Of a DNA stretch of 64,000 nt, positions 3,256 through 49,310 are shown one piece after another. The notes beneath the pieces were generated by a model. It searched no databases, was not told the DNA's origin, and saw only the letters and a program-made list of their open reading frames with translations. How positions within the stretch are numbered: position 1 is the first letter of the stretch; each line of letters opens with the position of its first letter. Both the position numbers and the translations under genes were made by a program. This DNA is from Haematobia irritans (lineage: Eukaryota > Arthropoda > Insecta > Diptera > Muscidae): contig NC_134398.1 in the NCBI RefSeq assembly GCF_050003625.1, forward strand, positions 199,629,983-199,693,982, written 5' to 3'.

Positions 3256-3415
3256 CAGTTTTGCCAGTATTGGGGATTTTTTCCACATTGGGGATATATT
3301 TTCGTGAATAGGGACGAAATTTCTGAGTTCGGGATTTGGGTGGAATTTCCATAAATTTGCGGAGTTTTGTGGGGATTTTTTCGAGTTTAATCTTTTAAAA
3401 AAATATATATTTATT

Positions 3416-3764
3416 TAGGAAATGTTGTCAAAATTTTATATCTATAGAAAATTTTGTGAAAATTTTATTTCTATAGAAAATTTTGTCAAAATTTTATTTC
3501 TACAGAAAATTGTGTCAAAGTTTTATTTCAATAGAAAATTGTGTCAAATTTTTATTTCAATATACAATTTTGTCAAAATTTTATTTCTATAGAAAATTTT
3601 GTGACAATTTTATTTCTATAGAATATTTTGTCAAAATTTTATTTCTATAGAAAATTTTGTAAAAATTTTATCTCTATACAAAAATTTGGTCAAAATTTTA
3701 TTTCTATAGGAAATTTTCTGAAAATTTTATTTCTATAGAAAATTTTGTCTAAACTTTATTTGGG
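3416..3764 (+). repeat. 29-bp tandem array
   Basis: This is the same unit as at 1468-2318 in the opposite orientation, reading attttatttctatagaaa. It lies inside the hAT-type element and ends at the first, partial copy of the hammerhead-bearing repeat (gggtttagtgaactgactg). Confidence 0.9.
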
Positions 3765-3828
3765 TTTAGTGAACTGACTGAATTTATTCAGATAATTGGT
3801 TTTCCATAAAGCTCGAAAAATAATTGTA

Positions 3829-3925
3829 TAATTAGATTTCTATAGAATATTTTGTCAAAATTTTATTTTTATAGAAAATTTTGTCAAATTTTATTTCTAT
3901 AGAAAATTTTGTCAAAACTTTATTT
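3829..3925 (+). repeat. short 29-bp array
   Basis: Three units of the 29-bp repeat separate the two lead-in copies of the hammerhead-bearing repeat. Confidence 0.8.
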
Positions 3926-3975
3926 GGGTTTAGTGAACTGACTGAATTTATTCAGATAATTGGTTGATAGTTTTG

Positions 3976-4044
3976 CTGCAAGTAGAGGATGCTGATGAGG
4001 AATGTGGTAATTCCGAAACGTACGTCCATCCAACCATCTTGCAG
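3976..4044 (+). ncRNA. hammerhead ribozyme, type I, complete
   Basis: The elements, read in order, are as follows. Outer stem I is CTGCAAG (3976-3982) with CTTGCAG (4038-4044). Inner stem I is GGATG (3987-3991) with CATCC (4027-4031). The core is CTGATGA (3992-3998). Stem II is GGAAT (3999-4003) with ATTCC (4010-4014) around a 6-base loop. GAAA follows at 4015-4018. A two-pair stem III (CG/CG) leads to the GUC cleavage site, with predicted cleavage after 4026. Very short stem III is typical of hammerheads known from Penelope-like elements. All strictly conserved core bases are present. Activity is inferred, not shown. Confidence 0.85.
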
Positions 4045-4155
4045 TCTATAGGGCTTTGCCCAAATAAATTTGACAAACATTCTTTTCCTCTGTTGGTTTT
4101 GCTACTCTTGTAGTTTAGTCAACACAATGGTTTTAAAGCTGGGATCAAAACAACA

Positions 4156-4497
4156 AATAAAATTTTATTTCTATAGAAAATTTTCTCAAAATTTTATTTC
4201 TATAGAAAATTTTATTTCCTTATTTCTATTTTTTCCATATATTTGTGGATTTTTGTGGGGATTTTTTCGAGAAATCAGTTTAATCTTTTTGACAAAATTT
4301 TATTTATTTAGGAAATGTTGTCGAAATTCTATTTCTATATAAAATTTTGTGAAGATTTTATTTCATAGAAATTTTTGTAAAACTTTTATTGCTATAGAAA
4401 ATTTTGTCAAAATTTTATTTCTATAGAAAATTTTGTCAAAATTTTATTTTTATAGAAAATTTAGTCAAAATTTTATTCCTATAGAAAATTTTGCCAA
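4156..4497 (+). repeat. 29-bp array interrupted by a tggggattttttcgag module
   Basis: Units of the 29-bp repeat flank a short module (about 4225-4300) that also occurs at 3345-3400 and 4700-4775. The interior of the hAT-type element has therefore grown by tandem duplication. Confidence 0.8.
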
Positions 4498-4503
4498 AAT
4501 AGA

Positions 4504-4565
4504 GCATGCTGATGAGGAATGTGGTAATTTCGAAACGTGCGTCCATCCAACCATCTTGCAGTCTT
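4504..4565 (+). ncRNA. decayed hammerhead ribozyme motif
   Basis: The CTGATGA core (4509-4515), GAAAC and the GTC site are kept. Stem II has a change (ATTTC in place of ATTCC, leaving a G-U pair). Inner stem I has a C-C mismatch (GCATG against CATCC), and the outer stem I 5' strand is gone because the upstream sequence is 29-bp repeat. Cleavage is probably weak or lost. Confidence 0.7.
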
Positions 4566-4675
4566 TAGGGCTTTGCCCAAATAAATTTGACAAACATTCT
4601 TTTCCTCTGTTGGTTAAGCTACTCTTGTAGTTTAGTCAACTCAATGGTTTTAAAGCTGAGATCAAAACAACAAAT

Positions 4676-5235
4676 ACAATTTTATTTCTATAGGAAATTT
4701 TGTCAAAATTTTTTCCATAAATTTGTGGATTTTTGTGGGGATTTTTTCGAGAAATTGGTTTAATCTTTTTTAACAAAATTCTATTTATTTAGGAAATGTT
4801 GTAGAAATTCTATTTCTATATAAAATTTTGTGAAAATTTTATTTCATAGAAATTTTTGTAAAACTTTTATTTCTATAGAAAATGTTGTCAAAATTTTATT
4901 TCTATAGAAAATGTTGTCAAAATTTTATTTCTATAGAAAATTTTATCAAAATTATATTTCTATAGAAAATTTTGTCAAAAATTCATTTCTATAGAAAATT
5001 TTGTCAACATTTTATTTCTATAGAAAATGTTGTCAAAATTTTATTTCTATAGAAAATTTTGTCAAAATTTTATTTCTTCAGAAAATTTTATCAAAATTTT
5101 ATTTCTATAGATAATTTTGTCAAAATTTTATTTCTTCAGAAAATTTTCTCAAAATTTTATTTCTATAGAAAATTTTCTCAAAAATTTATTTCTATAGAAA
5201 ATTTTGTTCAAATTTATTGTATATAAAATTTTGTT
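4676..5235 (+). repeat. 29-bp tandem array
   Basis: A long run of the attttatttctatagaaa unit fills the right half of the hAT-type element. About 290 bases of non-array sequence follow before the terminal inverted repeat. Confidence 0.9.
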
Positions 5236-5642
5236 GAAATTTTATTCGTTTTGTTATTGTCATCAATTGGAAGACGATCACCAGCCTCTTGGTGGTGTGG
5301 TTCGAAATCTTGATATTATTGCAGCTTGCTGGATTTGACAAAATTTTATTTTTTTTTTAATTATTACTGATTTTCTACAGCAGAGCCTTTTGTTTTCTTT
5401 TTTCAAAGAAATCTTGTCAAATATGTATTGGGGATTTTTGTGAGCAATTTAAGTTTAAATTGGGGGTTTTTGGGGACGAAGGCATCATAATTTGTGTACA
5501 AGAGCCACAAAAATACTGGCAACACTGAATGGCTATAACAACTGACCTACTCGTGGAACGTACTGTGGAGCGTATGACGAACATTTCAGTGTGAATTAAA
5601 AACCATAACTCATACGCTATAAGGACCTAAAGTTAATATCTT

Positions 5643-6525: not shown

Positions 6526-7782
6526 TGTAATCACGCTACAGACTTCAATAATGAAGCAATCGTGCTGAAATTTTGCACAAGCTCGTCTTTTGTCTGCAGG
6601 CAGGTCAAGTTCGAAGATGGGCTATATCGGTCCAGGTTTTGATATAGTCCCCATATAAACCGACCTCCCGATTTGGGGTCTTGGGCTTATAGAAATGGTA
6701 GTTTTTATCCAATTTGCCTGAAATTTGAAGTCTGGAGGTATTTTATGACTATAAAGAGATGTGCCAAAAATGGTGAGTATCGGTCCACGTTTTGGTATAG
6801 CCCCCATATAGACCGATCTCCCGATTTTACTTCTTGGGCTTATAGAAACCGCAGTTTTTATTCAATTTACCTGAAATTGGAAATCTAGAGGTATTGTAGG
6901 ACCACAAATACGTGTGCCAAAAATTGTGAGTATCGGTCCATATTTTGGTATAGCCCCCATATAGACCGATCTCCCGATTTGGGGTCTTGGGCTTATAGAA
7001 ACCGTAGTTTTTATCCAATTTGTCTGAAATTGGAAATCTAGAGGTATTTTAGGACCATAAAGAGGTGTGCCGAAAATGGTGAGTATCGATCCATATTTTG
7101 GTATAGCTCCCATATAGACCGATTCCCCAATTTTACTTCTTGGGCTTCTAGAATCCGAAGTTTTTATCCTATTTGCCTGAAATTGGAAATCTAGAGGTAT
7201 TTTCGGGTCACAAAGAGGTGTGCCGAAAATGGTGAGTATCGGTCCATATTTTAGTATAGCCCCCATAAGAACGATCTCCCGATTTAACTCCTTGGGTTTC
7301 TAGAAACCGTAGTTTTTATCTGATATGCCTGAAATTGTAAATATTCTGGTAATTTAGGCTCACAAAAACGTGTATCGGATTAAGTTTTTATCGGTCCATT
7401 TGGTAATGCCTCCATATAGACCGACTTCATTTCTTGAGGGTGTAGAAGGCGCACTGATCATGAAAATTGCTTGAAACTCAATGTAAAATTTCCAGATTTT
7501 GCTTCTACAGATTTAAGATTTCAAATCAAGACGTTATTTTATAATTTTCTTGCACACTTACAAGAGATGTTAATGATTCCTCTAAACCTCAAACAAAAAT
7601 GGTTCTTATAAATCCAGAATCTGATATAGTCCTCATAGGTGAAATCTTTACATTTATCTTCGGGTTGTGTCCTCAAGTCCTCAAGCCCTCCTGAAATTTC
7701 AAAGGAAACCCTAATATTTGGTTCATGGTGGTGGGTATTTAAGATTCGGCCCGGCCGAACTTACTGCTGTATATACTTGTTA
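6333..7782 (-). mobile_element. DINE-1/Helentron-like element, subfamily A
   Basis: Read on the minus strand, the element starts AACAAGTATATACAGCAG. It has a subterminal hairpin (gttcggccgggccgaat) near 7744-7762, a body of about 153-base tandem units, a (GACA) microsatellite, and a 3' part with the ttgatcagg and TATA-rich motifs resembling Drosophila DINE-1. It ends in gggtat. No protein is encoded. The empty site at about 8062 shows insertion between T and A runs without target duplication, as Helitron-type elements do. Confidence 0.8.
6476..6524 (+). repeat. (TGTC)n microsatellite
   Basis: Twelve or so tgtc units lie at a fixed position inside the DINE-1-like element. The other copies have shorter versions (for example 11262-11282 and 51080-51105), so expansion took place in this copy. 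Confidence 0.9.
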
Positions 7783-8242: not shown

Positions 8243-8539
8243 AGGATTTTAATTCGGGGGGTGGGTTCAACTTTAAAAAAAATATTCATATAATCTCATG
8301 TGTAGAAAATTTTATTTATGCATAGGTATGTATACAATATTTTTATAATATTAAATTTAGCCGACGGGCTTTTTGGACAGCAAATAAATCAATGACTTCT
8401 TCAGTCGGCACATTTATTCGGCGATGAACCGACATTAATGCCAATCCATTGAGTCTACTCTCGCCAGTCGAATTTCTAAGATACGTCTTTAATCTCTTCA
8501 TTTTTGAAAATGAACGTTCAGATGAGCACGTAGTAACTG

Positions 8540-9359
8540 CAGGGATGGAAAATGCAGTACTAAAGTACTTTTTTCAATACTTTTTCACCCCGGTCAGTAT
8601 CGTAGTACCTCCGCGAATGATTTAGTACCTTTTGTGTAGACATTTTTGAGTCGATATCAGATTTATGGTACAATAGCTTTGACAAAATATTTTAATATTT
8701 TGAGAAAGTCTTTATCAACCTTATTTGCTAATAGTCTTTTACAAATATGGCAAAACAGACATGTTCATGTGGGAAGAAAATCTCGATTTTGTAAAAGATA
8801 TAGTCAAAAACCGGATTTTATTGAACTTCAAGAATGTTTTAGTCGAAAAAAGAATGCGATTCTATATTATCGATTTTTTTATTTCGGTAGAAAATGTTGT
8901 CAAAATTTTATTTCTATATAGAATTTTTGCAAAATTTTATTTTTATAGAAAATTTTGTCAAAATTTTATTTCAATAGAAAAGTTTGTAAAAATTTTATTT
9001 CTATAGGAAATTTTTACAAAATTTTATTTCTATAAAAAAAATTTTGCAAATTTTTTTTCTATAGAATTTTTTTGGAAAATTTTATTTCTATAGAAAATTT
9101 TGTCAAAATTTTATTTCTATAGAAAATTTTGTCAAAATTTTATTTCTATAGAAAATTTTGTCAAAATTTTATTTCTATAGAAAATTTTTGCAAAATCTTA
9201 TTTATGTAGAAAATTTTGTCAAAATTTTATTTTCTTTAAAATTCAGTCTCTTGACAATAATCTTCCAGTGAAATTTTTGTTGAAATTTAGTAAAAAGTAC
9301 CTTTCCGCTTAAAAAATACCTTTTTTGTACTTTCTTAAAAATTGTATTTCCCATCCCTG
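8540..9359. mobile_element. non-autonomous hAT MITE inside hAT transposase
   Basis: The inverted ends CAGGGATGGAAAATGC (8540) and, on the other strand, CAGGGATGGGAAATAC (9359) are flanked by a perfect 8-base duplication AGTAACTG (8532-8539 and 9360-9367). The outer arms contain further matching agtacttt-type words. The interior is mainly a 29-bp array. A longer version sits at the same transposase position at 48098-49115. Confidence 0.85.
8880..9236 (+). repeat. 29-bp array inside the MITE
   Basis: About twelve units with the TTTCTATAGAAA core make up much of the MITE interior. Confidence 0.9.
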
Positions 9360-14486: not shown

Positions 14487-14694
14487 AGTATGCATGCTGT
14501 CGTTTCGAGAGCAAACTTAAATCCACGCTAGTTCTAAGATACATGTCTATCATCCTCTCCAGGGTCTTAAGTAAGAATGAGGATAAGCTGATTGGTCGGA
14601 AATCCTTCGCACTCGAGTGAGAGGCTTTTCCTGCTTTAGGTATGAAGACGACTTTTGTTTCCCTCCACTTTTCTGGAATATATGCTAAGTTTAC
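14487..14694 (-). pseudogene. duplicated LINE reverse-transcriptase segment
   Basis: The minus strand encodes YIPEKWRETKVVFIPKAG and FRPISLSSFLLKTLERM, nearly the same as residues in the longer frame at about 15004-14790. The nucleotide match is about 90% by eye. It fuses abruptly to the RNase H end after HAYSKGS. This is either an internal duplication with deletion or a recombination of two LINE copies. Confidence 0.7.
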
Positions 14695-16115
14695 ACATCG
14701 ATGTCTAGAAACGCCACGATTGTGTATTCTTTGACAGATAGTGAGCTTTCAATAAAGCTGACTAGTTCATGTAGTGCGGTCTCAGTAGACCTGCCCTTCG
14801 AGTATGCATGCTGTCCTTTCGAGAACAACCTTGAATCGATGCTAGTTCTAAGATAAATATCTATCATCCTCTCCAGAGTCTTAAGTAGGAATGAGGATAA
14901 GCTGATTGGTCGGAAATCCTTCGCCCTCGAGTGAGAGGCTTTTCCCGCTTTAGGTATGAAAACGACTTTTGTTTCCCTCCACTTTCCTGGGATATATGAT
15001 AAGTTGATACATCCTTTATATATCACTGACAACCAGGGGATAATTTTGTCAGTTACAGCTTGTAACTCCGCCGGAGTAATTCCATCAGGTCCGGGGGATT
15101 TGAATGGTCCAAAGCTATTTAGCGCCCATCTTATTCTAGTTTCCGATACAATTTCCTCGACAGGAAACGACCGCTGAGCAACTGTGGCGCCGCCAGTATA
15201 TGGTTCAACCGTCTGATTTCCAGGAAAATGTGTGTCCAATAGTACCTCCAGCGTCTCCTCACTGGACGTTGTCCAATTTCCCTCCGATGTTTTAATGAAA
15301 CCTGGAGCGGAGTTGGTGGATGCCAGAACCTTCCGTAGTCTGGAAGCCTCGGACGTATTCTCAATACTGCTGCAGTAGTCATTCCAAGAGTTATGCTGAG
15401 CCTTTCTCAGTTCTCGTTTATATGCTCTCAGATTCATCTTGTAAGTGTCCCAATCCTCCGGAGCTCTTGTGGACTTTGCTTTGTTAAAGAGCTTCCTGCA
15501 GGATTTCCTCATATTACTTAACTCCGTAGACCACCATGGCGGCCGATTTTTTCCCCTTGGCTTTCCTCTAGGGCAAGCAGCTTTCAGTGACGTATTGAAG
15601 GCCTTAGTAATCCGCTCCACTGCGTGTTCGATATCTTGCACAGTGCTCATATTTGTCTCTGGCATTTCCGGTATCATCAAATTGAACGATTCCCTATACC
15701 TATTCCAATCAGCTTTCCTAACATTTGGCGGAAATAGGGTCTTTGAAGTACGAACAGCCAATCTGAAACTGATGTAGCGATGATCTGAGAAGGTATGTGC
15801 CCTCAAAACTTGCCACTCAGATATCTTATCATTCAGTTCCGGAGAGGTCAACGTCCAAACGTCCAAAACCTCTTGCCTGTTTCTGGTGACGAAGGTTGGT
15901 GCATCTCCCTTATTGCAAACTACCAGGTTAGTACGCAAAATAAACTCTATTAACGACTCTCCCCTTGCATTAGTATCACTACTTCCCCAAATACTATGAT
16001 GTGCATTTACATCGCATCCCATAATGAGTTTTGTCTTTGTTTTTAGTGACTCCTCAACTAAGGTCTTAACGGCACAGGGTGGCATCTCCCTATCATGTCC
16101 CATGTGGACCGAAAT
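14691..16115 (-). pseudogene. LINE ORF2 fragment: endonuclease C-half and RT N-part
   Basis: The frame is open for about 475 residues. The endonuclease part shows MGCDVNAHHSIWG (Asp-X-Asn) and the catalytic SDH (in TFSDHRYISF). The reverse-transcriptase part shows FKSPGPDGITP, DFRPISLSSFLLK and QHAYSKGRSTETALHEL, and ends at AFLDID, the first catalytic aspartate motif (motif A). The frame stops two residues later, so the YADD-type motif C, thumb and RNase H are missing. The N-terminal half of the endonuclease is also lost: homology begins near SVHMGHDREMP, and the first 15 or so residues of the open frame come from unrelated repeat sequence. It cannot make an active enzyme. Confidence 0.85.
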
Positions 16116-16377
16116 CCTTGAAATATACAAATTTTGGTTTGATGAACTTATTTTTGTCATATCTCTGCAAATATTTGCTCTAGAGCGAAAAAAAGGTCAA
16201 TTCGTGACCACCCCAAAAATTTTAAATTTTGATGAAAATCTTCGAAAAATTTAAAATTTTCTATGAAAAATTTATTTTGGCTATATCTCCTTAAATATGC
16301 GACATAGAGTGAAAAGGAACGAATTAACGTCCTTTTCGCTCTATGTATGATCACCCCCTAAAAATCAAAATTCTTTG
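16116..16377. repeat. unclassified repeat with a 20-base hairpin
   Basis: Words such as gctctagagcgaaaa and gctctatgtatgatcacccc look like repeat units. 16302-16321 pairs with 16328-16346 (acatagag, gaaaagga) with one or two mismatches. It lies at the 5' break of the LINE. Confidence 0.4.
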
Positions 16378-17421
16378 TAATACACCGAAATATTGCTCTA
16401 AACCCCATAAAGTATATATATTATGGGTCGTGGTGAAATTCTGAGTCGATCTGAGCATGTCCGTCCGTCTGTTGAAATCACGCTAACTTCCGAACGAAAC
16501 AAGCTATCGACTTGAAACTTAGCACAAGCAGTTGTTATTGATGTAGTTGGTATTGCAAATGGGACATATCGGTCCACTTTTACGTATAGCCCCCATATAA
16601 TCGGACCCCCAAATTTGGCTTGCGGGGACTCTAAGGGAAGCAAATTTCATTCGATCTGGCTGAAATTTGGTACATGGTGTCAGCATCTCCAACAACCATG
16701 CAAAAATTGGTCCACATCGGTCCATAATTACATATAGCCCCCATATAAACCGATCCCCAGATTTGGCTTGCGGTGCCTCTAAGAGAAGCAAATTTCATCC
16801 GATCCGGCTGAAATTTGGTACATGGTGTAAGTATATGGTCTCTAACAATTATGCAAAACTTGGTCCACATCGGTCAATGATTATATATAGCCCCCAAATA
16901 AACCGATCCCCCGATTTGGCTTGCGCAACCTCTAAGAGGAGCAAATTTCATCCAATCCGGCTGAAATTTGATACATGGTGTTAGTATATGTTTTCTACTG
17001 ACCGTGCAAAAATTGGTTAACATCGGTCCATTATTATATAGCCCCCATATAAACCGATCACCAGATTTCCGGACCTCCGGAGCCTCTTGGAAGACCAAAA
17101 TGCATCTGATTCAGTTAAAATTTGGTACGTGGTGTTAATATATGGTCTCTAACAACCATGCAAAAATTGGTCCATATCGGTCCATAATTATATACAGCCC
17201 CCATATAAACCGATCCCCAGATTTGACCTCCGGTGCCATTTGGAGAAGCAAAATTCATCCGATCTGGATGAAATTTGGTTCGTGGTAGTAGTATATGATA
17301 TTTAACAACCATGTGAGTTGAAATTTGTGGATGACAGTCTTTCGTAGAAGTTTCTACGCAATTCATGGTGGAGGGTACATAAGATTCGGCCTGGCCGAAC
17401 TTACGGCCGTGTATACTTGTT
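16378..17421 (-). mobile_element. DINE-1/Helentron-like element, subfamily B, 5'-lacking head
   Basis: On the minus strand it starts with the AACAAGTATACACGGCCG end and a hairpin (gttcggccaggccgaat). About five 153-base units follow (aaatttgcttctcttagagg, tatatgggggctatat). It ends at ctttatggggtttagagc and lacks the last 40 or so bases (gggtat end). Confidence 0.8.
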
Positions 17422-17807: not shown

Positions 17808-18475
17808 AATTTTACAAAAAAATTTTCCATAGAAATAAAATTCTGACAAAATTTTCTATAGAAATAAAATTCTGACAAAATTTGCTATAGAAATAAAATG
17901 TTGGTAATATTTTCTATAGAAATAAATTTTTGAAAAAAACTCTATAGAAATAAAGTTTTGACAAAATTTTCTATAGAAATAAAATTTTGACACAATTTTC
18001 TATAGAAATAAAATTTTGACAAAATTTTCTAGAGGAATACGATTTTGACATAATCTTCTAAAGAAATAAAATTTTGAAAAATTTTTCTATAGAAATTAAG
18101 TTTTGACAACATTTTCTATAGAAATAAAATGTTGACACAATTTTCTATAGAAATAAAATTTTGACAAAATTTTCTATAGAAATAAACTTTTCTAAAGAAA
18201 TAAAATTTTGACAAAATTTTCTATAGAAATAAAATTTTGACAAAATTTTCTATACAAATAAAATTTTGTAAAAATGTTCTATAGAAATAAAATTTTGACA
18301 AAATTTTCTATACAAATAAAATTTTGTAAAAATTTTCTATAGAAATAAAATTTTGTAAAAATTTTCTATAGAAATAAAATTTTGTCAAAATTTTCTATAG
18401 AAATAAAATTTCAAAAAAAATTATCTATGGAAATAAAATTTCGAAAAAAATTTCTATAGAAATAAAATTTTGATT
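17808..18475 (-). repeat. 29-bp array, first block
   Basis: More than twenty units are present. Irregular members such as attttctagaggaatacga recur at the matching place in the second block. Confidence 0.9.
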
Positions 18476-18552
18476 TACGACTTTTGTATTTGTACTACAA
18501 AACTCATTTTGTTTGCTGTAGAGTATATAAACAAATTAAAGTGAATCAACCT

Positions 18553-19225
18553 TAATAAAATGTTTAAAAAATTTTCCATAGAAATAAAATTCTGACAAAA
18601 TTTTCTATAGAAATAAAATTCTGACAAAATTTGCTATAGAAATAAAATGTTGGTAGAATTTTCTATAGAAATAAAATTTTGAAAAAAAATCTATAGAAAC
18701 AAAGTTTTGACAAAATTTTCTATAGAAATAAAATTTTGACACAATTTTCTATAGAAATAAAATTTTGACAAAATTTTCTAAAGGAATACGATTTTGACAT
18801 AATTTTCTAAAGAAATAAAATTTTGACAAAATTTTCTATAGAAATTAAGTTTTGACAACATTTTCTATAGAAATAAAATGTTGACAAAATTTTCTATAGA
18901 AATAAAATTTTGACAAAATTTTCTATAGAAATAAACTTTTCTAAAGAAATAAAATTTTGACAAAATTTTCTATAGAAATAAAATTTTGACAAAATTTTCT
19001 ATACAAATAAAATTTTGTAAAAATTTTCTATAGAAATAAAATTTTGTCAAAATTTTCTATAGAAATAAAATTTTGTAAAAATTTTCTATAGAAATAAAAT
19101 TTTGTCAAAATTTTCTATAGAAATAAAATTTTGTAAAAATTTTCTATAGAAATACAATTTCAAAAAAAATTACCTATGGAAATAAAATTTCGAAAAAAAA
19201 TTCTATAGAAATAAAATTTTGATTT
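18553..19225 (-). repeat. 29-bp array, second block
   Basis: A near copy of the first block including its odd units, as expected from a recent block duplication. Confidence 0.9.
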
Positions 19226-19355
19226 ACGACTTTTGTATTTGTACTACCAACTCAGTTTATTTGCTGTAGACTTTTACGACTTTTGTATTTGTACTACCAA
19301 CTCAGTTTATTTGCTGTAGATTATATGAACAAATTAAAGTCAATCAACCTTAATC

Positions 19356-21965: not shown

Positions 21966-22579
21966 AAGGTAAAATTTAAAAAAATTATAAAAGTGAATAA
22001 TTTCTTCAACATTATTTGTATTACAGAAAAAGGTGCCAAGAACTAAAATATTTCGTGGAAGTGAAAATTGCGAGTATGTTAGGGTATGAGCACAATCGTC
22101 TTTGGGAAAAAATCTTCCAAGCATATAATATTTTTGGGCTCAAAATGCTTCCAAACATATAATATGTTCACATAAAACAAACATATTAATGTTTCGGCAG
22201 TATCCAATAATATATGTGCTTCCTGCAAAATATGTTTGGAACATATGTTAAAGAAGCGATTTTTTTTTGAGGGTGTATATCTAAATAATAATGTTTAAAT
22301 CTATATATATATTTAAAATTAAAGTCCACTAATCCCCTGACGTGGAACACGACGATAGTTAAAAAATGTGGAAAATATTTAAATCTAAGGCAATTTTTAG
22401 GCAACTTTACATAAGTTCATTTATGATTTATAGGTTCTTATATATATTATAGGAAAATTTGAGTATTTTTTTACAAGTTTTCAACTTATTAGTGGTAATT
22501 TTACAAGAAAAATGGAGGTATTTTTACCATTTTTTGCCCAAATCGGAAAACATATATATGGGAGGTATATTTAAGGCAT

Positions 22580-23037
22580 ATTCTATAGAAATTAAATTTT
22601 GGCAAAATTTTCTATAGAAATAAAATTTTGACAAAATTTTCTATACAAACAAAATGTTGACAATATTTTCTATAGAAATAAGATTTTGACAAATTTTTCT
22701 ACAGAAATAAAATATTGACAAAATTTTATATAGAAATAAATTTTTCACTAAACTTTCTATAGAAATAAAATTTTTACAACATTTTCTATAGAAATAAAAT
22801 TTGGACAAAATTTTCTATAGAAATAAAATTTTTACAAAATTTTCTAAAGAAATAAAATTTTTACAAAATTTTCTATAGAAATAAAATTTTGAAAAAAATT
22901 TCTATAGAAATAAAATTTTGACAAAATTTTCTATAGAAATAAATTTTTGGCAAAATTTTCTATAGAAATAAAATTTTTACGAAATTTTCTATAGAAATAA
23001 AATTTTGACAAAATTTTCTATAGAAATAAAATTTTGG
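22580..23037 (-). repeat. 29-bp tandem array
   Basis: About sixteen units run up to the ttggtagatcatttttgg module that also borders arrays in subfamily B elements at 46.4, 54.4 and 58.7 kb. Confidence 0.9.
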
Positions 23038-23040
23038 TAG

Positions 23041-24992
23041 ATCATTTTTGGGGAACGGCTATATATAACTATAGACCAATTTTGGAATGGTTGTTAGCGG
23101 CCATATACTAGTGCAATGTACCAAATTTCACCACGTACCAAATTTCAACCGGATCGGATGAATAGAGCTCCGGAGGTCAAATTTGGGGATCGTTTTAAAT
23201 GGGGGTTATATATAATTAAGACCCGTATGGATCAATTTTTGCATGGTTGTTAGAGACCATGTACTAACACCACGCACCAAATTTCAACCAGATCGGCTGA
23301 ATTTTGCTCTTCCAAGGAGCTCCGGCGGTCAAATCTGGGGATCGGTTTATATGGGTGCTACATATAATTTTGGACCGATGTGGACGAATTTTTACATGGT
23401 TGTTAGAGACCATATACTAACACCATGTACCATATTTCAGCCGGACCGGATGAAATTTGTTTCTCTGTGAGGCTCCGCAAGCCAAATCTGGGGATCGGTT
23501 TATATGGGGACCATAAGCGTAGGAAGGCCTCTGGGGAGGGGCCTTAGACCCCCCCCCCCCCCAGAAAAATTTTTGGGTTGTGGTAGCAGTTGCCGATGGC
23601 AATGTTTGAAGTCAGATATTTATGAAATAAAGCTGTGGTTGACCTTTCGATTGATTTAGTTTAGTCAATTTAATTAAAAAAAATAGTAATTGATATTAAA
23701 ACTATTCTTTTATAAATTAATATCTTAATAATGCGAAAAAGCGTCGCCAAAAAAGTAGTGAAATGTTCTTTTTGGGTCTAGAAGTGGTGCAAAATTGGCG
23801 GAGAAGCAATGAATGTAATATGAGCTTGTCATAGGACAAATGTCCACCGTTTCAACAGCCGTTGCAATGAATTTGCATCACTTCTTAAGGTGAGATCCGA
23901 ATTCAGTGTTTTGAATGTGAATTAGAAAATTTTGTGATATTTTCCCAAAAAATTATTTTTTTATTGTTTTTATGATTTTTAATGCATTCTGACGCTTGTT
24001 TGAAACGTTTTTCCTCGAATAATTTCCAAAATTATCGATTTTTCTCTAATGGATTTAGCAGTTTTATGGCAAAATTTGAATAATTTGTACCAATTTAGTT
24101 ATTCTTACTCTTTTTTTAAATTATTTGAAAAAAAAAACAAAAAATTACACATTAAAATATGAAAAAAATGAAGTAAAAAAACTCCCTGTGTAGTTAAAAT
24201 AATTGAGGGCATTTTTGGAAGTGCTTTTAAAGTTGTGCCTTTAGAACAACTAACAATTTTTTTGCTGGGAAAAGTGTGGAACTACTTTTAGTTGCTTTAT
24301 TATAAATTAATTGTCGAGTTATTTTGATGTCTAATTCTTTATTCAATTTTATAAAATAAAACATTAATTGAACCTATTAGTTCAGTCTATAAATTTTTAG
24401 CTAGGGGGGCTATAGCCCACCCCCCCCCCCTAGGAAAATTGTCTACCTACGCTAGCATGGTTGTTAGAGACCATATACCAACATCATGTACCAAATTTCA
24501 GCCCGATCGGATGAAAGTTGCTTTTCTTTGAGGCTCCGCAAGCCAAATCTGGGCATCGGTTTATATGGGGTCTATGCTTTACGCACCGGTGTGGACCAAT
24601 GTGGACTGATGTGGACCAATTTTTGCATGGTTGTTGGAGACCATATACCAACTCCATGTACCAAATTTCATGGATCGGATGATTGTCTTAGAGGCTCAGC
24701 AAGCCAAATCTGAGGGTCCGTTTATATGGAGGCTATACGTAAAAGTGGACTGATATGGCCCATTTTCAATACCATCCAACCTACATCAATAACAACTACT
24801 TGTGCCAAGTTTCAAGTCGATAGCTCGTTTCGTTCGGAAGTTAACGTGTTTTCAACAGACGGACGGACATGCTTATATCGACTCAGAATTTCACCACGAC
24901 CCAGAATATATTTACTTTATGGGGTCTTAGACCAATATTTCGATATGTTACAAATGATAAAGTTAATACACCCCTATTGTGGAGGGTATAAA
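23041..24992 (+). mobile_element. DINE-1/Helentron-like element, subfamily B, split
   Basis: 153-base units (23060-23514 and 24454-24740), then gacggacggacatgctta, tactttatggggtct and the gtggagggtat end at 24992. The AACAAG end is missing. The 23516-24453 insertion interrupts a unit. Confidence 0.8.
23516..24453 (+). mobile_element. AGCGTAGG-ended MITE with G/C homopolymer arms, copy 1
   Basis: The ends AGCGTAGGAAGG and (reversed) AGCGTAGGTAGA are inverted. Next to each end is a long C or G run (14 C at about 23548; 12 C near 24420) and a ggctatagcc palindrome. Related copies lie at 52042-52572 (minus) and 40950-41347 (partial). The class is unknown, and the target duplication is not clear. 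Confidence 0.65.
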
Positions 24993-29821: not shown

Positions 29822-30061
29822 AATTTTTATGATTTTTTATCTCATAATCTCGGCAATAGGTCTATAAATTAAACTTGAAATTGTTGGTTTCTTGTTTTTT
29901 TATTTTCCGATATTTCGGTTTCCGATATTCCGTTCGGCCTTGAAAACGGTTCTGACGAAGTCAACCGAAATATCGGAAAATAAAAAAACAAGAAACCAAC
30001 AATTTCAAGTTTAATTTATAGACCCATAGCCGAGAATATGAGATAAAAAATCATAAAAATT
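29822..30061. repeat. near-perfect inverted repeat with ~100-base arms
   Basis: The left arm 29822-29920 and right arm 29963-30061 match with only about five mismatches by eye, around a 42-base spacer. The arms contain tctataaattaaacttgaaa and ttttccgatatttcgg. Transcribed, it would form a long hairpin RNA. Confidence 0.85.
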
Positions 30062-30556
30062 GTATTTCCATAGAAAATTTTTTCAAGATTTTTTTTCTAT
30101 TGAAATTTTCTGAAAATTTTATTTCCATAGAAAATTTTTTCAAAATATTAATTCTTTAGACATTTTCAATAGAAAATTATGTCGTAATTTTAATTCTACA
30201 GAAAATTTTGTCAAATGTGGGTATTTCACAAAATTTTCAATTGAAATAAAATTTTGACAAAATTTTCTACAGAAATATAAATTTTACAAAATTTTCTATA
30301 AATATAAAATTTTGACAAAATTTTCTATATAAATAAAATTTTGACAAAATTTTCTATGGAAATAAAATTCTGACAAAATTTTTATATAAATAAAATTTTG
30401 ACAAAATTTTCTATGGAAATAAAATTCTGACAAAGTTTTTATAGAAATAAATTTTTGACAAAATTTTTATAGAAATAAAATAATAAATAAAATTTTGACA
30501 AAATTTTCTATAAAAATAAAATTTTCTATAGAAATAATATTTTGCCAAATTGTCAA
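30062..30556. repeat. 29-bp array, both orientations
   Basis: The first part reads in the ttatttccatagaaa sense. From about 30215 the units switch to aaataaaattttgac. An array inversion or fusion point lies near 30200-30230. Confidence 0.8.
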
Positions 30557-30589
30557 AAAAATGTAATTACTGGAGATGCATTTACTTTG

Positions 30590-31218: not shown

Positions 31219-32153
31219 AAGGGTGATTCTTTTGAGGTTAGGATTTTCATGCATTAGTATTTGACAGATCACGTGGGATTTCAGACATGGTGTCAAAGAG
31301 AAAGATGCTCAGTATGCTTTGACATTTCATCATGAATAGACTTACTAACGAGCCACAACGTCGAATTTTCAGTGAATGGGCCCTAGAAAAGTTGGCAGAA
31401 AATCCGCTTTTTTATCGACAAATTTTGTTCAGCGATGAGGCTCATTTCTGGTTGAATGGCTACGTAAATAAGCAAAATTGCCGCATTTGGAGTGAAGAGC
31501 AACCAGAAGCCGTTCAAGAACTGCCCATGCATCCCGAAAAATGCACTGTTTGGTGTGGTTTGTACGCTGGTGGAATCATTGGACCGTATTTTTTCAAAGA
31601 TGCTGTTGGACGCAACGTTACGGTGAATGGCGATCGCTATCGTTCGATGCTAACAAACTTTTTGTTGCCAAAAATGGAAGAACTGAACTTGGTTGACATG
31701 TGGTTTCAACAAGATGGCGCTACATGCCACACAGCTCGCGATTCTATGGCCATTTTGAGGGAAAACTTCGGAGAACAATTCATCTCAAGAAATGGACCGG
31801 TAAGTTGGCCACCAAGATCATGCGATTTGACGCCTTTAGACTATTTTTTGTGGGGCTACGTCAAGTCTAAAGTCTACAGAAATAAGCCAGCAACTATTCC
31901 AGCTTTGGAAGACAACATTTCCGAAGAAATTCGGGCTATTCCGGCCGAAATGCTCGAAAAAGTTGCCCAAAATTGGACTTTCCGAATGGACCACCTAAGA
32001 CGCAGCCGCGGTCAACATTTAAATGAAATTATCTTCAAAAAGTAAATGTCATGGACCAATCTAACGTTTCAAATAAAGAACCGATGAGATTTTGCAAATT
32101 TTATGCGTTTTTTTTAAAAAAAAAAGTTATCAAGCTCTTAACAAATCACCCTT
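31219..32153 (+). mobile_element. DD41D Tc1/mariner element, internally deleted, copy 1
   Basis: The inverted ends aagggtgatt (31219) and, reversed, aagggtgattt (32153) are flanked by TA (31217-31218 and 32154-32155). The host is the unclassified repeat whose uninterrupted form gaccaaatatcgaaa is seen at 33594. At 935 bases it is shorter than usual for the superfamily. Confidence 0.85.
31332..32045 (+). CDS. Tc1/mariner (DD41D) transposase lacking the DNA-binding domain
   Basis: The 237-residue frame is open from ATG to stop. It contains the whole DDE-type catalytic core: FSDEAHF (Asp35), WFQQDGATCH (Asp128) and LTPLDYFLWG (Asp170). There are 41 residues between the second and third Asp, the DD41D spacing known for rosa-like elements. 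WPPRSCDLTPLD is also typical of the family. The expected N-terminal helix-turn-helix region (about 100 residues) is absent. The first residues MNRLTNE look like a normal start, followed directly by PQRRIFSEWALEKLAE, so an in-frame deletion is likely. The product might still fold but should not bind the element ends. Confidence 0.85.
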   Translation: MNRLTNEPQRRIFSEWALEKLAENPLFYRQILFSDEAHFWLNGYVNKQNCRIWSEEQPEAVQELPMHPEKCTVWCGLYAGGIIGPYFFKDAVGRNVTVNGDRYRSMLTNFLLPKMEELNLVDMWFQQDGATCHTARDSMAILRENFGEQFISRNGPVSWPPRSCDLTPLDYFLWGYVKSKVYRNKPATIPALEDNISEEIRAIPAEMLEKVAQNWTFRMDHLRRSRGQHLNEIIFKK

Positions 32154-34552: not shown

Positions 34553-34702
34553 TCTATAGAAAATTTTCACAAAATTTTATATCTATTGAAAATTTTGTCA
34601 AAATTTTATTTCTATTGAAAATTTTGTCAAAATTTTATTTCTATAGAAAATTTTGTCAAAATTTTATTTCTATAGAAAATTTTGTCACAATTTTTTTTTT
34701 GT
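34553..34702 (+). repeat. 29-bp tandem array
   Basis: Five units next to the hammerhead-bearing repeat on the minus strand. Confidence 0.85.
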
Positions 34703-34714
34703 TGTTTTTAATTT

Positions 34715-34990
34715 CAGCTTAAAACCATGCATTGACTAAACTATAAGTGTAGCTTAACCAACTGAGGAAAGGAATTTTTGTTAAATTAATTTGGGCAAAG
34801 CCCTATGGACTGCATGATGGTTGGATGGACGCACGTTTCGGAATTACCACATTCCTCATCAGCATCCTCTACTTGCAGCAAAACTATCAACCAATTATCA
34901 GAATAAATTCAGGCAGGTCACTAAACCCAAAGTGAACCACACTTGAACCTTCCACAAACAGGTTTACGGTAGCCGGCTTATGCCGAAATA
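34715..34990 (-). mobile_element. hammerhead-bearing repeat, copy 3
   Basis: On the minus strand the order is aaggttcaagtgtggttca, gggtttagtgacctg, ribozyme, then agggctttgcccaaattaat and gttggttaagctacact. It has the same order as the copies at 3.8-4.2 and 48.3-48.6 kb, with a longer upstream part. Confidence 0.65.
34810..34878 (-). ncRNA. hammerhead ribozyme, type I, near complete
   Basis: The minus strand has the same 69-base layout as 3976-4044: CTGCAAG, TAGA, GGATG, CTGATGA, GGAAT/ATTCC stem II, GAAAC, a two-pair stem III (C-G, G-C), GTC, CATCC. The distal stem I strand reads CATGCAG instead of CTTGCAG, a single mismatch. Predicted cleavage follows the GTC on the minus strand. Confidence 0.85.
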
Positions 34991-35087
34991 AATTCGTACA
35001 AACATATCTCTTTTCCTTTGCCACTGTCAAATCATCGATTTGAGTGCAGTTGGCTGGCACGCTCAAAATAAACCCAGCCATTTTTAT

Positions 35088-35940
35088 GTCTATAGAAAAT
35101 TTAGTAAAAATTTTATTTCTATAGAAAATTTTGTGAAAATTTTATTTCTATAGAAAATTTTATTTCAATAGAATATTTTGCTCAAATTTTATTTGTATAG
35201 AAAATTTTGTCTAAATTTTATTTCTATAGAAAATTTTGTCCAAATCTTATTTACATAGAAAATATTGTCCAAATTTTATTTCTATAGAAAATTTTTTTAA
35301 AATTTTATTTCAATAGAAAATTTTTGGAAAATTTTATTTCTATAGAAAATTTTGTCAAAATTTTATTTCTATATAAAATTTTGGGAAAATTTTATTTGTA
35401 TAGAAAATTTTGTGAAAACTTTATTTTTATAGAAAATTTTGCCCAAATGTTATTTCTATAGAAAAGTTTGTCTAAATTTTATTTTTATAGAACATTTTGT
35501 CCAAATTTTATTTCTATAGAAAATTTTGTGTAAATTAAATTACAATACATTTTTTTTCCAAATTTTATTTCAATAGAAAATTTTGCCCAAATTTTATTTC
35601 TATTGAAAATTTTGTCAAAATTTTACTTCTATAGAAAATTTTGTGAAATTTTTTTTTCTATAGAAAATTTTGTCTAAATTTTATTTTTATAGAAAATTTT
35701 GTCAAAATTTTATTGCTATAGAAAATTTTGAGTAAATTAAATTTCTATAAATTATTTTTCCAAATTTTATTTCAATAGAAAATTTTGTGAAAATTTTATT
35801 TGTATAGAAAATTTTGTCAAAATTTTATTACCATAAAAACTTTTATCAACGTTTTATTGTTATAGAAAATTTTGTCCAAATTTTATATCTATAGAAAATT
35901 TTGTCCAAATTTTATTTCTATGAAAAATGTGTCAAAATTT
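35088..35940 (+). repeat. 29-bp tandem array
   Basis: Nearly thirty units; the spacer word varies (gtcaaaa, gtccaaa, gtgaaaa). Confidence 0.9.
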
Positions 35941-39979: not shown

Positions 39980-40902
39980 AAGGGTGGTTAAATTGTAAGG
40001 GCCGATGTTGAATGTGAACCACACCTAAGCGCCAAGTTTTTTTCCGAATTTTATTTGACATTTCTCTATTTCAGACTTACTCAATTTGAACCATTGGGAG
40101 ATACACAATCCAACAACATATTAAATGGTTCCAAGAAATGGCAACAGTGGATGATCAATTTCCGAAGAAAATCATCTTCAGTGATGAGGCACATTTTCAC
40201 CTCAGTGGATTCGTCAATAAACTGAATTGCCGCATTTGGGCGAATGAGAATCCAAGAGTGATTGTCGAAAAACCAATGGACCCACAAAGAGTGACTATTT
40301 GGTGCGGTTTATGGGCTGGCGGCATCATCGGGCCGTATTTTTTCCACAATGAGGCCGGTCAGGCAGTTACTGTGAATGGTGTTCGCTATCGTGAGATGAT
40401 AACGAACTTTTTATGGCCCGAATTGGAAGATATGGATGTGGACGATATATGGTTTCAGCAGGACGGTACCACTTGCCACACAGCTAACGAAACAATGGCT
40501 CTTTTGCGCAACAAATTCAATGGTCGTGTTATCTCCCGTAATGGCGATGTCAATTGGCCGCCAAGATCATGTGAATTTGACACCGTTGGACTTTTTTTCT
40601 TTGGGGTTATTTGAAAGAAAAGGTGTACGTCGATAAGCCAGCAACCATTCAAGAGCTAAAGGATGAGATAATTCGGCACATTAACGGCATAGACCCTCCA
40701 TTATGCCTCAGCGTCATCGAAAATTTGGACCATCGGATGAAGGTGTGCCACCGAGGTCGCGGCGCCCATTTGGCCGATATTTTGTTCCGCACATAATTGA
40801 ATAATACCAATATATCATAATAAAATAAAATTACAATAATTTCCTAAATAGTTTGTGTTTTATTCAAAATCAACATCGGCCCTTGAAATTTTAACCACCC
40901 TT
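39980..40902 (+). mobile_element. DD41D Tc1/mariner element, deleted and frameshifted, copy 2
   Basis: The inverted ends aagggtggttaaa (39980 and, reversed, 40902) continue with aagggccgatgttga in both arms. TA lies on each side (39978-39979 and 40903-40904). Removing it restores gggtataatatagtcgg, which is exactly the subfamily C sequence seen in reverse at 8138-8153. Confidence 0.9.
40138..40793 (+). pseudogene. DD41D transposase remnant with frameshift
   Basis: The first frame gives FSDEAHFHLSG and WFQQDGTTCHTA. After SWPPRSC-like sequence (WPPRSCEFD) the frame shifts, and the third motif LTPLDFFSLG is read in another frame. From about 40611 KEKVYVDKPATIQELKDE restores a family-like C-terminus. 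The DNA-binding part is missing, as in copy 1. The two copies differ clearly, so they are separate subfamilies or old. Confidence 0.85.
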
Positions 40903-41537: not shown

Positions 41538-44268
41538 AACAAGTATATACAGCAGTAAGTTCGGCCGGGCCGAATCTCAAATACCCACCACCATGAATCA
41601 AATATAATAGTTTACTTTGAAAACTCTTCGTCGTAGCGGGTTACTTGATAATATATAGAATTTTAGGGGGTTTGATGACAAATCTTCTCCCAAGCAAATC
41701 AGTTGAACCTATACACTTTCCGAAGAAAAAATTAAAAGATTCTACTTATGAAGTCTAGATCAGATTTTTGATATATGAGAACCAATTTTGTTTGAGTTTT
41801 TGAGAGAAATCATAAACATATCGTGTATATGATGAAATAACGCCTTGATTTGAAATCTTAAATCTGTAGATTTTTTCCGCCATTATTTAAATGAATACGA
41901 GGAGTAAAATCTGGAAATTTTACTTTCAGTTTCAAGCAATTTTCATGATCAGTGCGCCTGCTATACCCTGAAAGAAGTGTTTCCTTTTCTCAGGACCGAA
42001 ATTTTAGACAAGCAAAGTTTTCTTTTGACACAAATTTTAGAGACTATCGTTGAATCGCTTATCAAAAATTCAGATTAGTTTGCTCTAAACGAAAATACTT
42101 CATACGAAAGGGGAGTTTCGTTTGTTGAAAATTTCATTCCGGAGGAAAATATTTTTTCTTTGGGTGTACCCTCAAGAAGTTAAATTGGTCTATATCGATG
42201 CCTTACCAAATGGACCGGTAAAAATAAATACGATACAGATTTTTGAGGGTCCAAAATACCAGTATATTTATATTTTTGTGCAAATCGGATAAAAACTACG
42301 GTTTCTAGAAGCCCAAGGTGTTAAATCTGGAGATCGGTCTATGTGGAGGCTATGCTAAAAGATGGGTCGACACACACCATATTCGGCTGACCTATTTCTG
42401 GTCAGCCGGATTCTAGAAGTCCTAGAAATAAATTCGGGAGTTAAAACTACGAATTCTAGAAGCCCAAGAAGTAAAATCGGGGGATCAGTCTATATAGGGG
42501 CTATACCAAAACATGGACCTATAAGGACCATTTTCGACGCACCTCTTTATGGTCCTAAGATACCTCTAGATTACTAATTTCCGGCAAATTGGATAAAAAC
42601 TACGGATTCCAGAAGCCCAATAAATAAATTTGGGGGATCGGTCTATATAGCGGCTATACCAAAACATGGACCGATAGGCACCATTTGCGACACACCTATT
42701 TTTGATCTTAAAATACCTCTAGATTTCCAATTTCAGGCAAATCGGATAGTAAAAACAGTTTATAGAAGCCCAAGAATAAAAATCGGGAGATCGGTATATA
42801 TGACGGCTATACCAAAACATGGACCGACACGGACCATTTTCGACACAGCTTTTTATGGTCTTAAAATACCTCTAGACTTTCAATTTCAGGTAAATCGGAT
42901 AGTAAACACAGTTTCTAGACGCCCAAGAGGCTAAATCGGGAGATCGGTCTATATGGGGGCTATACCAAAACATGAACCGATATACCCCATTTTCGACACA
43001 CCTCTTTATGGTCTTAAAATACCTCTAGATTTTCAATTTCAGGCAAATCGGATAGAAATTACAGATTCTAGACGCCCACGAAGCAAAATCGGGAGATCGG
43101 TCTATATGGGGGCTATACCAAAACATGAACCGATATACCCCATTTTCGACACAACTCTTTATGGTCTTGAAATAACTCTAGATTTTCAATTTCAGGTAAA
43201 TCGGATAGTAAATACAGTTTCTAGACGCCCAAGAGGCTAAATCGGGAGATCGGTCTATATGGGGGCTATACCAAACCATGGACCGATATACCCCATTTTC
43301 GACACACCTCTTTATGGTCTTGAAATACCTCTAGATTTTCAATTTCAGGCAAATCGGATAGAAATTACAGTTTCTAGAAGGCCAAGAAATAAAATCGGGA
43401 GATCAGCCTATATGGGGGCTATACCAAACCATGGACCGATATACCCCATTTTCGACACACCTCTTTATTGTCTTAAAATACCTCTAGATTTTCAATTTCA
43501 GGTAAATCGGATAGTAAATACAGTTTCTAGACGCCCACGAAGCAAAATCGGGAGATCGGTCTATATGGGGGCTATACCAAAACATGGACCGATGTACCCC
43601 ATTTTCGACACACCTCTTTATGGTCTTGAAATACCTCTAGATTTTCAATTTCAGGCAAATCAGATATAAATTACAGTTTCTAGAAGGCCAAGAAATAAAA
43701 TCGGGAGATCAGCCTATATGGGGGCTATACCAAACCATGGACCGATATACCCCATTTTCGACACACCTCTTTATTGTCTTAAAATACCTCTAGATTTTCA
43801 ATTTCAGGTAAATCGGATAGTAAATACAGTTTCTAGACGCCCACGAAGCAAAATCGGGAGATCGGTCTATATGGGGGCTATACCAAAACATGGACCGATA
43901 TACCCCATTTTCGACACACCTCTTTATGGTCTTGAAATACCTCTAGATTTTCAATTTCAGGCAAATCAGATATAAAATACAGTTTCTAGACGCCCAAGAA
44001 GCAAAATCGGGAGATCGGTCTATATGGGGGCTATACCAAAACATGAGCCGATATACCCCATTTTCGAACTTGACCTGCCTGCAAACAAACAACGAATCTG
44101 TACCAAATTTCAGGACGATAGCGCCATTATTGAAGGTTGTAGCGTGATTACAACAGACAGACGGACGGACATTCTTATATCGTCTTAGAATTTCTCCCTG
44201 ATCAAGAATATATATAATTTATATAGTCGGAAATCGATATTCACCATTCTATGGTGGTGGGTATAAAA
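41538..44268 (+). mobile_element. DINE-1/Helentron-like element, subfamily A, full length
   Basis: Runs from AACAAGTATATACAGCAG and its hairpin (gttcggccgggccgaat) to ggtggtgggtat at 44268. About eleven 153-base units fill 42350-44050. Because 153 is a multiple of 3, frames such as 43259-43669 stay open without being genes. A 197-base insertion (41970-42166) lies in the 5' part. Confidence 0.85.
41970..42166. mobile_element. 197-bp insertion with TACCCT duplication
   Basis: TACCCT occurs at 41964-41969 and again at 42167-42172. The uninterrupted form ctataccctcaagaagtt is seen at 10135. The ends are weakly inverted (gaaagaagtg; reversed, cacccaaaga). The subfamily A copy at 49.7 kb carries the left half of the same insertion, so it entered a shared ancestor. 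Confidence 0.6.
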
Positions 44269-46979: not shown

Positions 46980-48295
46980 TTGTTTTTATTTATTTATAAA
47001 CTAATTCATTGTTTATTTGTATTTATAATGCCGTTCAAGCAAACATCATATATTTTTACACACTCTATTTTATTTCAATTTCAACAATAAGTAATTATTC
47101 CATATTTACAACGTGCCCATCAAATGTACAAACGCAGACATCATGTAACTGCAAATAAAAATAAATGATACCATATAGCAAAATGCAGAACAAAAAACAG
47201 GTACATTTTTCCAATTAAACTTTCCTTTTTTGTGTTCACATAAAACCACGTGCCACTTCTGAATAAATAAATTAACACAAAACACAGCAAATCCGTATTA
47301 TCCGTCCATTCCAAGAAACAATCAACACACGACTGACGCGCAAAATGAAAATTGTGTGTTCCTGCTCAATGTTTTTATAAAATTCTTTTCGCTGCAAACA
47401 AGTTAAAAAAATAAATGGTCACGAAAAAAATGTAAATGGTCTTTATGGCCATGTAATGGTTCTAGACATGTCTATACTTAACCTATAAAAATACTTTTTT
47501 TCCCTGTAAAAATGTAAAAAAATTGAATGGTCAGGTACATGATTTTCCCGACCATTTAATGGTCTCAAATTCTATCATTTAAATGATAGAACATGTTTGC
47601 GGTATTTGAGAACCATTCAAATGCTTATTGCCACCATACATTTTTCTCCGCTCGAAAACTATTTTTACAAAGACATAATACATGGTTTTCGCGACAATTA
47701 CATGCTCTAGATAAGCAGGAAAGCTGAAGGTTTTATTTTGAAGACGCTTACTTATAAAACTTGCACAAATCCTAGAATACTAGTTGAAAAGCCCGTCAAA
47801 CGACGGTCGAAAAAAACAAATTGTTTTTGTTCTCGCACCACAAATTTCATTTTTGGAAAATGTATTTCTGCTTTTTATGTGTGTTTGTTGTTCTTTTTGT
47901 GAACATGACTCGCTTTGTTTGGCCATAGCAACAACAAGGAAACAGCCAAACACACATGTGTAAATGAAATGGCGCAAAACCTGCGAAAAGAACCTGCCTA
48001 ATTCAGCGATGGAAGCACTTGGAGAGAGCAATAAAGAGATATTTCCAAACGTGCATATTCTTTTAAAAATTTTGGTCACTTTGCCAGTAACTGTTACCAG
48101 GGATGGAAAATACAATTTTTAAGAAAGTACAAAAAAGGTATTTTTTGAGGGGAAAGGTACTTTTTACTAAATTTCAACAAAAATTTCACTGGAAGATTAT
48201 TGTCAAGAGACTGAATTTTAAAGAAAATAAAATTTTGACAAAATTTTCTATATAAATAAAATGTTGCAAAAATTTTCTATAGCCGGCTATCATAC

Positions 48296-48620: not shown

Positions 48621-49310
48621 TAAAATTTTGCAAAAAAAATCTATAGGAAAAAAATGTTGCAAAATTTTTTCTATAGAAATAAAATTTTGCAAAAATTTCC
48701 TATAGAAATAACATTTTTACAAAATTTTCAATTGAAATAAAATTTTGACAAAATTATCTATAAAAATAAAATTTTGCAAAAATTCTAATATAGAATCGCA
48801 TTCTTTTTTCGACTAAAACATTCTTGAAGTTCAATAAAATCCTGTTTTTGACTATATCTTTTACAAAATCGAGATTTTCTTCCCACATGAACATGTCTGT
48901 TTTGCCATATTTGTAAAAGACTATTAGCAAATAAGGTTGATAAAGACTTTCTCAAAATATTAAAATATTTTGTCAAAGCTATTGTACCATAAATCTGATA
49001 TCGACTCAAAAATGTCTACACAAAAGGTACTAAATCATTCGCGGGGGTACTACGGTACTGACCGGGGTGAAAAAGTATTGAAAAAAGTACTTTAGTACTG
49101 CATTTTCCATCCCTGCAGTTACTACGTGCTCATCTGAACGTTCATTTTCAAAAATGAAGAGATTAAAGACGTATGTTAGAAATTCGACTGGCGAGAGTAG
49201 ACTCAATGGATTGGCATTAATGTCGGTTCATCGCCGAATAAATGTGCCGACTGAAGAAGTTATTGATTTATTTGCTGCCCAAAAAGCCCGTCGGCTCAAT
49301 TTAATATTAT

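Follow-up and report, generated by a model that had tools for sequence, protein, structure and literature searches.

A predicted type I hammerhead ribozyme in four copies of an A-tailed, 5'-truncated repeat of the fly Haematobia irritans

RESULTS

Four copies of a hammerhead core in a fly repeat

We analyzed a stretch of 64,000 nucleotides of the Haematobia irritans genome (NC_134398.1, positions 199,629,983 to 199,693,982; hereafter the window) and found a hammerhead core in four copies of a dispersed repeat. On balance, we consider it more likely than not that this repeat is a 5'-truncated, A-tailed retroposon with a type I hammerhead core, with a predicted cut after GUC, and that the ribozyme would work best as a double hammerhead. 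A first-pass annotation of the same DNA had described three copies. All three were recovered with CTGATGA, GAAA, GTC, a 5-bp stem II, and a two-pair stem III in place, and with a stem I whose 5-bp and 7-bp parts are separated by an internal loop, as that annotation had it. Its count of three was rejected, as one further copy (c2 below) had been missed.

3976-4044, plus strand: copy c1, complete type I hammerhead with all core bases
4497-4561, plus strand: copy c2, core kept, 5' strand of the outer stem I gone, C-C mismatch in the inner stem I, G-U pair in stem II
34810-34878, minus strand: copy c3, complete hammerhead whose outer stem I has a single A-A mismatch
48388-48456, plus strand: copy c4, complete hammerhead

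The core nucleotides (C3 U4 G5 A6 N7 G8 A9, G12 A13 A14 A15, and U16 H17) are present in 4/4 copies. Three stems adjoining the core, with the ends open on stem I (type I), were found in 3/4 copies, the exception being c2 with its half-lost outer stem I and one inner mismatch. The core pattern CTGANGA..GAAACGNNCGTC has 4 matches in the window versus 0 in 100 dinucleotide shuffles. A three-stem descriptor retrieved exactly c1, c3, and c4 from the window, with no match in any of 60 shuffles, and a covariance model built from these three copies matched the window only at the four copies, at E values up to 10. The hammerhead motif in the fly repeat is confirmed by these searches and exceeds chance; it is a further instance of a known motif type and involves no new mechanism.

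The curated Rfam model, which the first-pass annotation had proposed as a check, gave a divided answer. RF00163 (Hammerhead_1) was the best match on 4/4 copies, each taken as 101 nt, with a score of 16.1 bits (E, 0.14 to 0.15) that is under half of the gathering score of 34 bits, and an Rfam scan of the whole window returned no hammerhead reaching an E value of 1. The architecture is thus clear, while the score of 16.1 remains below the curated threshold of 34. The parts of the ribozyme in c1, all on the plus strand, are as follows.

3976-3982/4038-4044: outer stem I, 7 bp
3987-3991/4027-4031: inner stem I, 5 bp
TAGA/AACCAT: stem I internal loop
3992-3998: CTGATGA
3999-4003/4010-4014: stem II, GGAAT/ATTCC, with loop GTGGTA
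4015-4018: GAAA
4018-4019/4024-4025: stem III, A-U and C-G, with loop GTAC
After C4026 (GUC): predicted cleavage site
4004-4037: predicted loop I-loop II pseudoknot, GTGGTA (4004-4009) with AACCAT (4032-4037)

Directly 3' of stem I, all four copies carry an identical hairpin, GGGCTTTGCCC (4051-4061 in c1), which is followed in the copies by AAATAAA (AAATTAA in c3). The hairpin together with AAATAAA is possibly a processing or polyadenylation signal.

A predicted loop pairing and a palindromic stem III

Three properties of the element go beyond the first-pass annotation: a predicted loop pairing, a palindrome in stem III, and the insert structure of c1, c3, and c4. Loop II and the stem I internal loop contain complementary stretches, GUGGU and ACCAU, which could form 4 Watson-Crick pairs and 1 G-U pair; both loops are unchanged in 4/4 copies. 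The chance frequency of a pairing of this quality is 0.7% among random loops and 4.7% among shuffled ones; for four Watson-Crick pairs alone, the frequencies are 3.1% and 14.5%, respectively. The energy model puts the pairing of the isolated c1 pseudoknot loops at roughly -4 to -5 kcal/mol. Base pairing between loop II and a stem I loop is a known means of bracing hammerheads, about 40% of those examined being thought to be pseudoknotted according to an excerpt of PMC3088659. The pseudoknotted hammerheads in the same excerpt (Perreault 2011) resemble the fly copies in having a 5-bp inner stem I and an internal loop that pairs with loop II.

Stem III and its loop form a palindrome, ACGUACGU in c1 and ACGUGCGU in c2 to c4, the latter with two G-U pairs. 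Intermolecular 8-bp pairing of ACGUACGU with itself is predicted at -9.8 kcal/mol and that of ACGUGCGU at -8.8 kcal/mol. In PMC3088659, palindromic stems III are noted in repeat hammerheads, among them those of Aedes, that possibly need dimers. As modeled, the palindrome could let two fly copies build a double hammerhead.

Folding of single and paired transcripts

The 77-nt stretch of c1 is not exceptionally stable (z score, -1.8; 15/200 shuffles equally stable), and its minimum-energy fold differs from the hammerhead. In the energy models, the active monomer fold lies above the minimum-energy fold by 3.2 (c1), 6.8 (c3), and 7.4 (c4) kcal/mol, in figures that leave out the contribution of the pseudoknot. 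These gaps may say little, because a single control, a hybrid in which the stem II of c1 was placed in the Rfam consensus, itself showed an active-fold gap of 5.9 kcal/mol. The best predicted dimer of c1 with itself is the double hammerhead (-46.8 versus 2 x -19.3 kcal/mol); this form lies above the best dimer by 4.6 kcal/mol for c3 and by 6.2 kcal/mol for c4. The minimum-energy dimer of c1 with c2 holds an intact composite core, made of the 5' half of c1 and the 3' half of c2, and this model would in principle allow cleavage at c2 in a transcript that spans the two copies.

Structure and surroundings of the inserts

The ribozymes of c1, c3, and c4 sit within longer inserts, with the following borders and surroundings.

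3926-4158, plus strand: c1 element of 233 nt, truncated at its 5' end and ending in the A-rich tail AACAACAAAT (borders by eye)
3914-3925, plus strand: left target-site duplication of c1, AAAACTTTATTT (29-bp minisatellite)
4159-4170, plus strand: right target-site duplication of c1, AAAATTTTATTT
3748-3801, plus strand: copy of the c1 5' junction (minisatellite followed by GGGTTTAGTGAACTG...), without the hammerhead
34691-35081, minus strand: c3 element, 391 nt, the longest insert, with A-rich tail AAAAACAACAAAAAAAAAA (borders by eye)
48283-48617, plus strand: c4 element, 335 nt, with a long A-rich tail, in register within a 29-bp array (borders by eye)
1455-2334, 3401-3933, 4152-4507, 4671-5254, 8872-9244, and others: stretches of the 29-bp minisatellite AAAATTTTCTATAGAAATAAAATTTTGAC, part 1
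17808-19231, 22570-23048, 30045-30557, 35076-35937, and others: stretches of the same minisatellite, part 2

With the ribozyme strand taken as sense, the three inserts begin at different 5' points and end A-rich, the tail of c4 being about 50 nt longer than those of the other copies. A 12-bp target-site duplication, AAAA(C/T)TTTATTT, flanks c1 (1/3 inserts); none was seen at c4, and any at c3 would be masked by the A tail. TTTT-type target sites are present at c1 and c3, not at c4. Each insert lies inside the 29-bp AT minisatellite, which continues in register on both sides. The orientation of c1 relative to the minisatellite is opposite to that of c3 and c4, and the junctions differ; for these two reasons we count c1, c3, and c4 as three separate insertions. 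That 3/3 separate inserts fell within the minisatellite is unlikely to be chance (0.115 cubed, ∼0.0015), because the minisatellite, in both orientations, makes up only 11.5% of the window. Copies c1 and c2 belong to a 517-bp tandem segmental duplication (3980-4195 and 4497-4712, 94% alike), which includes minisatellite DNA and is a later event.

The A-rich tails, the graded loss of 5' sequence, and the TTTT-type sites of c1 and c3 are consistent with LINE-type machinery having inserted the element by target-primed reverse transcription. An A-rich 3' end combined with varying 5' truncation, the mark of SINEs and other LINE-mobilized elements, was found in c1, c3, and c4. ARAGORN reported 0 tRNA genes in the window, a result that bears on the Pol III promoter or tRNA-like head expected of a SINE-type element. 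The host repeat is probably a SINE-like or cut-down LINE-type retroposon mobilized by LINE machinery. The 5' truncation, the A-rich tails, and the 12-bp duplication at c1 support in kind the earlier suggestion of a non-autonomous retroelement without a visible reverse transcriptase.

Under the proposed mechanism, the A-rich-tailed RNA of the element would be copied by the reverse transcriptase of another element and inserted at TTTT-type sites, which would be plentiful in minisatellites. The single-unit ribozyme would be weak, given its two-pair stem III and competing folds, and most transcripts would remain whole and available for reverse transcription. Head-to-tail or paired transcripts would form a shared 8-bp stem III and be cut. 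All inserts extend across the cleavage site, and their RNA templates must therefore have been either uncut or re-joined. We regard as quite improbable the more ambitious idea of a pseudoknot-braced hammerhead in a fly SINE that is off in single transcripts, on when two copies pair, and serves as a copy-number sensor. If it were true, the ribozyme would trim tandem or crowded transcripts and spare single units for reverse transcription. Hammerheads are common in animal repeats, and most of the described cases considered here belong to Penelope elements or to tandem retrozymes. An internal hammerhead close to the 3' end of a dispersed insert that is A-tailed and 5'-truncated would offer a clean situation where cutting is expected to harm mobility, and the element raises the question of whether short palindromic stems III keep a ribozyme off until two copies meet.

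Variation among copies and the possibility of an inert motif

The differences among c1, c3, and c4 are confined to the stem I internal loop, loop III, and one pair of the outer stem I, in agreement with the first-pass annotation, which had raised selection on the fold as a possible cause. Variable columns among these copies number 3/69 in the ribozyme and 19/141 in the flanks (6/50 on the 5' side and 13/91 on the 3' side), a difference with a Fisher P value of 0.054 two-sided and 0.031 one-sided. The pairwise comparisons of ribozyme and flanks among the three copies gave P values of 0.061, 0.228, and 0.048. Compensatory stem changes were absent, with no pair altered on both sides (3 variable columns in c1, c3, and c4). 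These counts do not demonstrate selection on the fold. Lower P values (0.001 to 0.006 in the pairwise comparisons of c1, c3, and c4, and 0.009 in a second count) result when the flanks take in minisatellite columns and were rejected for that reason.

The same data bear on whether the motif is an inert remnant, that is, four copies from one source with stems alike by descent and no RNA cutting today. This would agree with the absence of compensatory changes, with ribozyme columns that are not significantly slower than their flanks, with an active fold that is not favored in monomers, and with an Rfam score under the cutoff. It is opposed by the shuffles, which yielded no complete three-stem hammerhead, so that activity is probable for the source element at least. 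We consider an inert remnant doubtful. A very different account makes the repeat an antisense piece of a decayed CFA20/Bug22-like gene and the hammerhead a by-product. The reverse strand of c4 (48322-48513, minus strand) does read as 64 residues with a weak likeness to CFA20 in Pfam (E, 0.12) and in solved structures (E, 0.1), but this similarity is below significance, c3 has no Pfam match at an E value of 1, and stops interrupt the frame in c1 and c2. The codon changes between c3 and c4 are 4 synonymous and 10 non-synonymous, and a shuffled c3 element gives an equally long open stretch in 61% of cases. We find this account hardly credible. Antisense CFA20 coding was rejected as a candidate, the E value being only 0.1 and the shuffle score having used a target picked post hoc.

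On the antisense strand of c4, the stretches RLxDGW and NYxxxIRxN stand nearly in register with the CFA20/Bug22 domain. An 84-residue frame at 34887-35141 (minus strand), which ends just before stem I of c3, was considered as a possible C terminus of a retroelement protein and also rejected. The final 66 residues matched no Pfam family and no solved structure, and searches found no homologue of 0.55 to 1.75 times the length of these 66 residues and none with a padded query (first 48/66 residues).

Comparison with Penelope elements, retrozymes, and other hammerhead repeats

The first-pass annotation had suggested a relative of Penelope-like elements, and positive support for this is absent. Pfam scans covered 19 frames (9/30 long frames over the window plus 10/50 listed frames near the copies), none of which held a Penelope-type protein (reverse transcriptase with GIY-YIG endonuclease); the matches were to a LINE fragment, a hAT end, and the end of a BLTP1 gene. 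A tandem pseudo-LTR arrangement is not seen in the window, where the three separate inserts have one hammerhead each and the c1-c2 pair is a segmental duplication. The element could still be read as a solo fragment of a Penelope-like element, the end of a pseudo-LTR with its hammerhead. 5'-truncated copies of Penelope-like elements are known, which counts for such a reading. So do type I hammerheads in pseudo-LTRs, some of which cleave as double hammerheads with a stem III of ≤2 pairs (excerpts of PMC11167929, PMC7761336, and PMC6466107), and the excerpt of PMC6466107 names stems III of two pairs or fewer for double hammerheads, Penelope ones included. The fly hammerheads share with those of Penelope-like elements and Terminons the type I topology, the very short stem III, and a possible double hammerhead. 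They differ in that Penelope hammerheads are described as minimal in the usual case, with neither helix III nor loop contacts in PMC6155905 and without helix III and/or loop-loop contacts in PMC7761336. The two-pair helix III and the predicted loop pairing of the fly copies lean against the Penelope label. The frame at 14691-16196, moreover, belongs to a LINE fragment. We judge a Penelope fragment to be distinctly unlikely.

A metazoan non-LTR retrozyme, in which tandem transcripts would be cut to monomers and circularized and the circles reverse transcribed, is also unlikely. Invertebrate retrozymes (Cervera and de la Peña 2020, PMC7229834, in excerpt) have the type I hammerhead with a two-pair helix III and tetraloop, are non-autonomous, and show target-site duplications of >4 bp; the fly element likewise has no visible reverse transcriptase, and its duplication is 12 bp at c1 (1/3 inserts), to be compared with 15 bp in Nematostella repeats (excerpt of PMC4918200). 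Copies c1 and c2 also stand in tandem, 517 bp apart. Known retrozymes, however, are tandem repeats of about 150 to 450 bp whose arrays yield circles, as far as the excerpt of PMC7229834 goes, and here three separate inserts carry a single hammerhead each. No tandem of 150 to 450 bp was found in the window, the only tandem of any kind being c1-c2, and no head-to-tail array of the element alone occurs within it. The c1-c2 pair was rejected as a retrozyme dimer, the 517-bp unit being a segmental duplication with minisatellite DNA inside. The A-rich 3' ends and graded 5' truncation, in which the fly element also departs from retrozymes, suggest linear A-tailed templates.

By analogy with SM-alpha, the fly element is most closely described as a SINE-like retroposon that carries a type I hammerhead. 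SM-alpha of Schistosoma is a short SINE-like repeat with a type I hammerhead (excerpt of PMC8490949); the schistosome repeats are tandem and contain tRNA sequence in the excerpt of PMC4918200, whereas the fly inserts are single and 5'-truncated, in a window where ARAGORN reported no tRNA gene. pDo500 of Dolichopoda cave crickets is also from an insect, with repeats of ∼500 bp and both single and double forms proposed, but it is an abundant satellite, and in the double form proposed for it stem III stays inside a single strand (PMC2837043, in part). The fly element is a dispersed insert, and its stem III would be shared between two strands. Dipteran hammerheads, including those of Musca domestica, have similar motifs, but those in the excerpt of PMC7936874 are type III, open at helix III, and c1, c3, and c4 are type I. 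Exact pattern searches of viral (IMG/VR) and prokaryote (GTDB) genomes returned 0 relatives, with none expected there.

Other features of the window

The LINE fragment on the minus strand (14691-16196) contains an endonuclease domain (PF14529) and the first part of a reverse transcriptase domain (PF00078, RVT_1), which scores 27.4 bits, slightly short of the cutoff of 29.6. The only host gene recognized is a C-terminal stretch of BLTP1 at 61677-62444 (E, 3.4e-33); among the 120/237 relatives listed, the one that combines high coverage and a species name comes from Drosophila palustris (49% identity over 92%). Repeats with a 153-bp period occur in both orientations, with 81 to 89% matches between neighboring units and long open frames running across units.

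6625-7342, 16585-17313, 42454-44067, 45122-46351, 49885-50991, 53427-54346, 58932-60176, and others: 153-bp-period repeats

Two inverted copies of 530 bp (8340-8869 and 48786-49315) are 98% alike, and the second overlaps a match to a hAT C-terminal domain at 49082-49309 (E, 2.6e-06); they are probably pieces of a young hAT element. Two similar open frames at 31323-32045 and 40090-40614, which by eye we take to be DNA transposase pieces, had no Pfam match. A 158-bp stretch at 29863-30020 has long self-complementary arms and, on both strands, a likeness to one Rfam microRNA family that falls far short of the cutoff (77.2 of 180 bits); it is probably a MITE-like hairpin. A long array of TA dinucleotides extends from 62804 to 64000, up to the end of the window.
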